A stretch of 64,000 nucleotides of DNA from Azospirillum thiophilum (GTDB lineage: Bacteria > Pseudomonadota > Alphaproteobacteria > Azospirillales > Azospirillaceae): contig NZ_CP012401.1 in assembly GCF_001305595.1 (NCBI RefSeq), positions 310,001 through 374,000 on the forward strand. The letters run 5' to 3'. The position numbers were made by a program, and so were the translations under genes. Each line of letters begins with the position of its first letter. Positions within the stretch are counted from its first letter, which is position 1. The notes beneath the pieces were generated by a model. That model made no database searches. It was not told the origin of the DNA and saw nothing but the letters and a program-made list of their open reading frames with translations. Positions 49,158-50,800 of this stretch are shown piece after piece.

Positions 49158-49367
49158 CTCAAGACGCCGATCAGTGAAGGAAGCGCTGCTGAGACTCTAG
49201 TGATGCGTCCCCCAAGCCCCGACGGGGCAAAGGGCGGTCGCCCCCTCTCTTCCGGGGTGGGTGGATTGACCCTTCCGGCGTGAACGCGGCGCTGGCCCGC
49301 CACAAAGGGCGGCGGTATAGGGTTGGCCCCGAAGCACCCCTCCCCCTTCCATCCGGACGGCGACAGC

Positions 49368-50294
49368 ATGCGACTCGGAATCGATTTGGGCGGCACCAAG
49401 ATCGCGGCCGTGGCGCTCGACGCGGATGGGACGGAATGCGCCCGCCACCGCCGCCCCACCCCCCGCGGCTACGACGCCACGCTGGACGCGCTGGCGGAGA
49501 CGGTGGCCGCGCTGGACGGCCGATGCGGCGGCGAAACCGGGCCCTGCGATGCCGCCCCCCGTGAAACCGGAAGCGTCGGCATCAGCCTGCCCGGCGTGGT
49601 CGATGCCGCCGCCGGCCGGGTGCGGGCGGTCAACCTGCCCTGGCTGGACGGCCGCCCCTTCGCCGAAGACGCGGCGCGGCGGATCGGCCGGCCGGTGCGG
49701 ATCGCCAACGACGCCAACTGCTTCACCCTGTCGGAGGCAGCGGACGGCGCCGCGGCCGGCGGCGGCGTCGTGCTCGGCATCATCCTCGGCACCGGCGTCG
49801 GCGGCGGGATCGTGGTCGATGGGCGCATCCTGCCCGGCGCCAACGGGCTGGCCGGCGAATGGGGCCATGCGCCGCTGCCCTGGCGCGACGACGCCGACGG
49901 TCCCGCGGTCGCCTGCGGCTGCGGCAAGAGCGGCTGCCTGGAGACTGTCCTGTGCGGAGCCGGCCTGTCCCGGCTGCACCGCCACCGCACCGGCCTGTCC
50001 CTCGACCCGCCGGAGATCGCCGCGCACGCCCTGGCCGGCGATGCGGTGGCGGCGGGAACGCTCGCCCGCCACGCCGATGCGCTGGCCCGCGCCCTCGCCC
50101 CGGTGCTTAATCTGCTGGACCCGGACATCGTCGTGGTCGGCGGCGGCCTGTCCGCCCTGCCCGGCCTGTGCGAGACCGTGATGGAACGCTGGGGCGCCTG
50201 GACCCTGGCGGCCACGCCGCGCACCCGGATGGCCGTTGCCCGCCATGGCGGCGAGAGCGGCATGCGCGGCGCCGCGCGCCTGTGGCCGGCATGA
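49368..50294 (+). CDS. ROK-family sugar kinase (fructokinase/GlcNAc-kinase like)
   Basis: ROK kinases phosphorylate hexoses with ATP. The 308-residue product has the phosphate loop GIDLGGTKIA, catalytic Asp115 in RIANDANC, GTGVGGGIVVDGRILPGANG, and the complete zinc motif with GEWGH (His167) and CGCGKSGC (Cys183, 185, 190). The zinc motif and no DNA-binding N-terminus make it a kinase, not a repressor. The sugar cannot be decided. The ATG at 49368 starts the P-loop strand. It is upstream of, and probably separate from, the sigma-54 gene. Confidence 0.9.
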   Translation: MRLGIDLGGTKIAAVALDADGTECARHRRPTPRGYDATLDALAETVAALDGRCGGETGPCDAAPRETGSVGISLPGVVDAAAGRVRAVNLPWLDGRPFAEDAARRIGRPVRIANDANCFTLSEAADGAAAGGGVVLGIILGTGVGGGIVVDGRILPGANGLAGEWGHAPLPWRDDADGPAVACGCGKSGCLETVLCGAGLSRLHRHRTGLSLDPPEIAAHALAGDAVAAGTLARHADALARALAPVLNLLDPDIVVVGGGLSALPGLCETVMERWGAWTLAATPRTRMAVARHGGESGMRGAARLWPA

Positions 50295-50346
50295 CGCGGC
50301 CCTCCGGCCGGCATCCTCGACCCGATCGCAACCAACGATCACGCGC

Positions 50347-50361
50347 TGGCACGGGACTTGC
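50347..50361 (+). promoter_or_regulatory. Sigma-54 (RpoN) promoter, -24/-12
   Basis: CTGGCACGGGACTTGCG has the -24 element TGGCAC (50347-50352) and the -12 element TTGC (50358-50361), with GG and GC exactly 10 nt apart, as RpoN requires. The only departure from the consensus is the final base. The predicted start is near 50372, just before the RBS of the gene at 50396. Upstream, TGT-N10-ACG at 50281 is close to, but not, a NifA site. Confidence 0.8.
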
Positions 50362-50395
50362 GCATTCCCGGGTCGGACCGAACGGGGGTATGCCC

Positions 50396-50707
50396 ATGAT
50401 GCGGAAGAAGTTGGGGACGCGGGCCACGGGCAACGGCGTTCATTTGCATTTTGCAAACCGGAACGCGACACGGCCGGGAAAATCGTCGGCCCATTTGCAT
50501 TTTGCAAATGACCTGGGCACCGGCCGCCATCTGGAACATGCCTGCGCCCGTTTGCAGGATGCGGCGGTGGAGCTGGAAACGGTGCTGGCACAACTGCCCG
50601 GCGACAAACAGGCCGACCTCCATGAGGCCATCGGCTCGATCATGGAGACGCTGCAGCTGATCGCGTCGGCCCATGCCCGGCTGGAGCCGCCCATCGCCGC
50701 GGATTGA
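50396..50707 (+). CDS. Small protein under sigma-54 control, unknown function
   Basis: The 103-residue product starts MMRKKLGTRATGNGVHLHFA. It has an N-terminal half with the sequence HLHFAN twice, 17 residues apart, and a helical C-terminal half (LEHACARLQDAAVELETVLA, LHEAIGSIMETLQLIASAHA). GGGGG lies 6 nt before the ATG at 50396; ATG 50390 is also possible. The HLHFAN codons are AT-rich and rare for this genome. I know no family for it. Nitrogen-related control is a guess from the promoter. Confidence 0.6.
   Translation: MMRKKLGTRATGNGVHLHFANRNATRPGKSSAHLHFANDLGTGRHLEHACARLQDAAVELETVLAQLPGDKQADLHEAIGSIMETLQLIASAHARLEPPIAAD
50441..50510. repeat. Two copies of an AT-rich palindrome, CATTTGCATTTTGCAAA
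   Basis: The 17-bp sequence occurs at 50441-50457 and 50492-50508, 51 nt apart. The second copy extends to a perfect 8-bp inverted repeat, CATTTGCA-TTT-TGCAAATG (50492-50510). Both lie in the same reading frame of the small ORF. They could be paired protein-binding sites or RNA hairpins. Confidence 0.75.
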
Positions 50708-50767: not shown

Positions 50768-50800
50768 AAAAAAAGGCGGTCCGCCGGGACCGCCCTTTTT
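50768..50800. terminator. Bidirectional rho-independent terminator
   Basis: GGCGGTC (50775-50781) pairs with GACCGCC (50788-50794), with A7 before it and a T5 run after it. It can end the plus-strand sigma-54 gene and the minus-strand 20-codon ORF at 50841-50903. Confidence 0.88.

Follow-up and report, generated by a model that had tools for sequence, protein, structure and literature searches.

The 103-amino-acid (aa) orphan gene at positions 50396..50707 (+) of a stretch of Azospirillum thiophilum DNA is probably driven by a LuxO-like activator from enhancers that lie inside its own coding sequence, as part of a chemotaxis regulon. The stretch, called the window here, comprises 64,000 nucleotides (contig NZ_CP012401.1, positions 310,001 to 374,000), and its own numbering is used for all features within it. 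LuxO-type regulators are known from Vibrio quorum sensing. An earlier note, made by a model from the sequence alone, had pointed to a sigma-54 promoter in front of a small protein without a recognized family, and both parts of that reading hold in the comparative analysis described below. The proposal developed here draws on a promoter that is conserved with the gene, on two in-frame palindromic boxes with frozen rare codons, on the recurrence of the same box at other sigma-54 promoters, and on the LuxO-family proteins encoded in the genome. If true, sigma-54 enhancers would here be embedded in protein-coding sequence, a natural arrangement that is conserved and in which codon choice serves a transcription activator, and a plant-growth-promoting alphaproteobacterium would have its chemotaxis genes under a LuxO-type regulator. 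A named regulator together with a defined box makes a concrete and testable candidate.

The sigma-54 promoter

The promoter, TGGCACGGGACTTGC at 50347..50361 (+), consists of a -24 (TGGC) and a -12 (TTGC) element and is assigned from its sequence and its conservation across loci. The TGGCAC-N5-TTGC arrangement described in the earlier note is present, with the GG-to-GC spacing of 10 nt that is the criterion for an RpoN promoter, and counting from the -12 element at 50361 places the predicted transcription start at about 50373 (+). By itself, TGGCACGGGACTTGC is weak evidence for a promoter and near chance level: the window contains three matches to the promoter pattern at one mismatch or fewer as compared with 4.6 expected from shuffles, and exact TGGCACN5TTGC sites number 34 genome-wide versus 10 for a reversed-pattern control. 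The promoter is judged to be real because it is conserved with the gene and not because of the motif match alone. TGGC-N7-TTGC is found at a nearly fixed distance 5' of the start codon in 30/30 Azospirillum loci and 5' of the same gene in 36/36 loci of a second, overlapping set, although the genomes are related and these counts are not independent trials. The second set combines 8 extra loci from a profile search with 28 loci recorded as Azospirillum (27) or Roseomonas (1), and many of its genomes are shared with the 30-locus set. In the alignment, the eight TGGC/TTGC bases are invariant while most neighbouring intergenic bases are variable, and the promoter also precedes the gene in five divergent relatives, namely genomes G009 and G022 and three genomes of genus g37. 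At loci L014-L016 a different gene replaces the upstream ROK-type gene and the promoter is retained; the promoter is assigned to the 103-aa gene because the upstream neighbour changes while the promoter stays. The -24/-12 bases are kept with the gene in relatives, as the earlier note had required, the exceptions being a partial homologue (G028, L103) and five weak matches in other genera, none of which has a sigma-54 site near the start. Directly 5' of the -24 element, at 50327-50345, lies the block CGCAACCAACGGTCAC, which is conserved in close relatives only and is possibly the site of another protein.

The signal proposed in the earlier note was nitrogen status or another enhancer-dependent cue. 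RpoN of Azospirillum is used in nitrogen fixation and nitrate use, according to a part of PMC8561660, and the promoter could accordingly respond to NtrC or NifA, but we regard this as very improbable. The NifA site TGT-N10-ACA is present in 0/30 upstream regions, NtrC-like sites (GCAC-N5-7-GTGC) are present in 1/30 versus 2.0 expected, and two genomes without a nifH match above the cut-off, G029 and G031, keep the gene, the promoter, and the boxes. The same note had seen no clear NifA or NtrC site upstream, and its near miss, TGT-N10-ACG at 50281, overlaps the 3' end of the ROK gene. IHF sites show no excess in the 30 upstream regions, and the FlbD-like sequence CCGGCA is found in 9/30 of them versus 7.6 expected. 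Nitrogen status is thus left unsupported as the signal, while an enhancer-dependent signal of another kind fits a LuxO-type activator and chemotaxis.

Two LuxO-type boxes within the coding sequence

The proposed enhancers are two LuxO-type boxes of the same sequence, TTTGCATTTTGCAAA, located within the open reading frame (ORF). Box 1 (50443..50457, +) is centred at about +78 and box 2 (50494..50508, +) at about +129; they are 51 bp apart and lie at +96 and +147, respectively, from the -24 element. The two LHFAN motifs of the protein are both encoded by these identical 15 bases. The LuxO-binding consensus of Vibrio, given as TTGCAW3TGCAA in a part of PMC11443567, is contained perfectly in both boxes, near a sigma-54 promoter, and the exact palindrome TTTGCAN3TGCAAA occurs in the 7.6-Mb genome at boxes 1 and 2 only. 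Box 1 matches at least 10/12 positions in 30/30 loci, always at position +47 of the coding sequence and at +94 to +97 from the -24 element, and its place is also fixed in the 36/36 set. Box 2 matches at least 9/12 positions in 27/30 loci at position +98 of the coding sequence, always 51 nt beyond box 1. Homology of the gene start accounts for part of this constancy of position. In the five divergent relatives, box 1 is found at +94 to +96 from the -24 element with 9-11/12 positions (5/5), and the background density of boxes in 148 kb of loci is 0.18/kb at a score of at least 9 and 0.04/kb at a score of at least 10. In none of the 30-locus, 36-locus, or divergent sets does a box of at least 9/12 lie within the roughly 350-450 bp that precede the promoter.

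The codons that carry the boxes are conserved at the level of the DNA. Among 17 genomes, the ten box codons show 0.1% synonymous difference versus 39% in the rest of the gene; 0/100,000 random ten-codon sets are equally low, and among 4,465 pairs of five-codon blocks only the box pair reaches that value. When all 30 genomes are considered, the gap is smaller, with 15% synonymous difference in the boxes versus 41%, and is still unmatched by random sets. The GC content at third codon positions is 0.21 in the boxes versus 0.79 elsewhere in the gene, and the box codons are rare in five genes of the window, where TTG accounts for 7/219 leucine, TTT for 1/56 phenylalanine, and GCA for 17/354 alanine codons. 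It is an unusual feature of the proposed arrangement that sites within the first 40 codons would dictate those codons. The repeats could also be kept for the protein or the mRNA, that is, for the LHFAN motifs, for RNA hairpins, or for slow codons, with the promoter used by another activator. Four residues (A20, N21, A24, and A37) do not vary among 30 sequences and therefore the protein is constrained too, and the palindrome would make a 6-bp RNA hairpin. We nevertheless consider this explanation quite unlikely, as the rare codons are frozen despite commoner synonyms, the palindrome remains near 10/12 even where the peptide differs (LQTAN, SQIAN), and copies of the palindrome precede other sigma-54 promoters as well.

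The same box at other sigma-54 promoters

Exact boxes are found in 25/45 genomes of the genus, whereas the reversed pattern is found in 1/45. Away from the 103-aa gene, the box is found about 100-170 bp upstream of the sigma-54 promoters of chemosensory rather than nitrogen genes, namely chemoreceptors, and of a 72-aa gene. In the A. thiophilum genome, further boxes with two mismatches or fewer lie upstream of sigma-54 promoters. One of these, at C1:1413258, precedes the gene of a 72-aa protein (MNAISM..., no Pfam family; L106:2870-3085, -, on C1), and a pair at C1:2126607 and 2126646 precedes a PAS-MCP (methyl-accepting chemotaxis protein) chemoreceptor. Another pair, at C2:205 kb, precedes a GGDEF protein with an imperfect -12 element, TTGA instead of TTGC, and was the only one to stand out among 20 stretches of this genome with box-like single sites.

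Twelve stretches around exact boxes outside the 103-aa gene, a subset of such boxes, were examined across the genus. With an A/T-only (W3) spacer, 7/8 boxes are followed after about 130-170 bp by TGGCA[CT]N5TTGC. In each of the seven cases the next gene is an orthologue of the 72-aa gene; for G002 and G027 this assignment is made only from the shared opening residues. Nowhere in the genus is the combination of upstream LuxO-type box and sigma-54 promoter clearer than at the orthologues of the 72-aa gene. Among the other four exact boxes, one (G008, before an MCP gene) is accompanied by a promoter and three are not. A close pair of boxes at L187:1394-1427 (G009 C3) includes an exact TTTGCATTTTGCAAA, and a flagellin-like gene starts more than 600 bp away behind TGGTACN5TTGC. 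Sites of the form TTTGCACSGTGCAAA, present in four genomes, were dropped as candidates; the G021 pair, the only one examined, is without TGGC-N7-TTGC nearby.

A looser pattern (half-strict box, 90-120 bp, TGGC-N7-TTGC) gave 14 matches in 12/45 genomes and 0 in the reversed control. Chemoreceptors follow seven of these matches; the MCP-signal domain was found in five, and in the other two the locus ends before that domain, with PAS and 4HB_MCP domains as in the MCP of A. thiophilum. Of the remaining matches, one, in G009 C1 with three boxes, stands before the 72-aa gene and another before an orthologue of a second window gene that has a sigma-54 promoter. This second window gene (40053..40388, -) encodes a helical-looking small protein of 111 aa, MADIVVLKHVRL..., with no Pfam family, and follows the second sigma-54 promoter of the window, TGGCACGCCGGTTGC at 40426..40440 (-). 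TGGCA[CT]N5TTGC is located at -51 to -53 before the 111-aa orthologue in 9/10 syntenic stretches, the gene not being found in the tenth, and in G036 the promoter of the orthologue is preceded by two LuxO-type boxes. On these grounds of sequence, the second window promoter is probably a member of the same regulon.

LuxO-like proteins as candidate activators

The genome encodes 23 strong matches to sigma-54 activators, 10 of which were covered by NCBIfam naming. LuxO-like activator 1, C1:910136-911593, scores 658 bits with the LuxO model over its full length, the next model giving 418, and LuxO-like activator 2, C6:98715-100073, scores 610 bits, the next model giving 388. Activator 1 contains a receiver domain (PF00072), an AAA+ sigma-54 domain (PF00158), and a Fis-type helix-turn-helix domain (PF02954); it is LuxO-like and not a LuxO equivalog. 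Its orthologue is present at an identity of at least 78% in 45/45 genomes of the genus and at 75-76% in g37. Activator 2, at the same threshold of at least 78%, is missing in many genomes of the genus, including much of the A. brasilense clade, and may be an alternative binder of the boxes. Within 6 kb of activator 1 lie a REC-HPt protein and a HisKA-HATPase-REC-HPt hybrid kinase, and such HPt proteins, if linked to it, would fit a LuxO-type phosphorelay.

Proposed mechanism

From these features we infer a mechanism in which RpoN polymerase would bind the promoter at 50347-50361 and a LuxO-family enhancer-binding protein, most likely C1:910136-911593, would open it. The phosphorylated LuxO-like protein would bind both boxes within the first 40 codons, ~78 and ~129 bp past the transcription start, and would reach the polymerase from downstream by DNA looping. 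The 103-aa gene would then be a member of a LuxO-like/sigma-54 regulon, and a role of its helical protein in chemotaxis or motility appears most likely because the other members are mostly chemoreceptors. As described in a part of PMC8100600, rpoN mutants of A. brasilense have no flagella and are non-motile.

Several observations weigh against this mechanism. At LuxO targets the box is expected about 100 bp upstream of the promoter, and here the boxes are downstream. Within the A. brasilense clade, box 2 has decayed to 7-10/12. Given the partial conservation of the LHFAN peptide motifs, the protein may account for some of the constraint, and the palindromes would form hairpins in the RNA as well. 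One exact box, in G009 C3, lacks a good promoter in its vicinity, the nearest being 661 bp away, five of the 14 matches to the looser pattern look like chance, and around the 111-aa gene no box of at least 9/12 is present within 500 bp. Both LuxO-like activators score below the curated cut-off of 800 bits of NCBIfam NF041946, and no TTNGCAN3TGCNAA site was found in the 23 activator loci, LuxO-family genes included, which gives no sign of autoregulation.

The position of the boxes also admits the opposite effect, in which they would be LuxO-type sites that repress or tune the gene, with another activator bound upstream and the protein on the ORF blocking elongation. Sites at about +70 to +137 stand in the path of the polymerase, the genome offers 23 strong activator matches, and CGCAACCAACGGTCAC just 5' of the -24 element is conserved in close relatives. 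We consider repression or tuning unlikely, however, as no upstream box of the tested types (NifA, NtrC, FlbD, IHF) is conserved, the upstream gene swaps while the promoter stays, and other sigma-54 promoters have the same box upstream at a distance that is normal for activation.

Activation from within the gene can be extended into a wider picture that we offer tentatively and hold to be rather doubtful. A LuxO-like phosphorelay may set the chemoreceptor repertoire of Azospirillum, with the 103-aa gene as a dedicated, self-limiting small-protein output whose promoter would fire in pulses, and the enhancer that it encodes may have shaped the N-terminal peptide or even be the reason that this peptide exists. 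Pulsed firing would be expected because the enhancers are transcribed: each departing polymerase must cross them and may displace the bound activator.

The 103-aa protein and its surroundings

The 103-aa gene most likely starts at ATG 50396, behind the ribosome-binding site GGGGG at 50384..50388 (+), which is seen in the sequence and as a G-rich block 5' of the start in the alignment, and its stop ends at 50707. The earlier note described a well-placed start codon about 25 nt beyond the promoter; many relatives do not keep an ATG at the in-frame position 50390, and ATG 50396 is therefore preferred. The 5' leader (50361-50395) may fold with the ribosome site in one arm of a hairpin (CCCG...CGGG here), and the corresponding arms in the leader of the A. 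brasilense clade are CCCTCCG...CGGAAGGG. The gene looks monocistronic because an intrinsic terminator, a stem-loop followed by a T run, is located at 50775..50794 (+).

Homologues, alignment, and AlphaFold2 together describe a protein with a disordered N-terminus that bears the two LHFAN motifs and with a C-terminal helical hairpin. The AlphaFold2 model has a mean pLDDT (predicted local distance difference test) of 71, with helices at residues 40-64 and 69-96 at 84-96; residues 1-36 are mostly below 50, and the N-terminus is probably disordered. No Pfam or NCBIfam match near the cut-off was obtained among 30 homologues, and a sequence search of the PDB and a Foldseek search gave no significant or convincing structural match. 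Homologues were found in 34/61 genomes in the first search, in 43/45 genomes of the genus and 8/37 genomes of other genera with the family profile, and in 2/385 genomes, both of the genus Azospirillum, in a class-wide search. As judged from these searches, the protein is confined to Azospirillum and near relatives. In genus g37, the gene, the promoter, and box 1 are present in three of five genomes, and the weak matches in genera g27, g31, and g32 (5 genomes), which have no sigma-54 site near the start, may not be orthologues.

Upstream of the promoter lies a sugar-kinase-like gene (49323..50294, +), presumably of the ROK family, as a neighbour outside the system. On the other side, a 20-codon ORF with a ribosome site, MDIAIMVLAVAFFFWQTITD at 50903-50841 (-), resembles a conserved membrane micropeptide and adjoins the 103-aa gene in many relatives. 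An Rfam match to the suhB/mmgR (Makes More Granules Regulator) RNA is located at 51412-51339 (-), beside an otsB-like gene, with 63 bits as compared with a gathering score of 41. The nearby mmgR RNA suggested a reading of the TTTGCA repeats as sites of PhaR, the polyhydroxybutyrate regulator, which was dropped once the box was found at other sigma-54 promoters.

Comparison with known systems

In the open-licence literature, covered mostly by listing, nothing matching this arrangement was found on in-ORF or downstream sigma-54 enhancers, on LuxO in Azospirillum or alphaproteobacteria, or on Azospirillum RpoN regulons. The closest parallel in the box itself is the LuxO/qrr system of Vibrio, in which sigma-54 promoters carry the palindromic TTGCAW3TGCAA, often twice per promoter, as described in a part of PMC11443567. 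The activator there is a response regulator from the same NCBIfam neighbourhood as the candidate proposed here. In Vibrio these boxes lie upstream and their targets are small RNAs, whereas the present boxes are within protein-coding sequence and the other box-bearing genes are chemoreceptors. SypG of Vibrio fischeri is a LuxO-like enhancer-binding protein that is able to share LuxO targets, and Azospirillum likewise has two LuxO-family paralogues; SypG differs in governing a polysaccharide locus, and no in-ORF sites are reported for it in the available part of PMC10162802.

Downstream positions of sigma-54 activators have precedents. For FleQ of Pseudomonas aeruginosa, sites downstream of the RpoN site are named in a title cited in PMC6120874; according to the available part of that source, FleQ acts close to flagellar promoters without looping there, and it is a different activator with no shared box. 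In Bacillus subtilis, RocR is a sigma-54 activator that works at rocG from downstream of the promoter, as given in a part of PMC4941409, and the likeness to the present case is one of position only. The site of RocR, 1.5 kb downstream of the promoter, lies between rocG and rocABC according to the same part of that source, whereas the boxes described here lie in the first 40 codons of the gene, where they would constrain its choice of codons.
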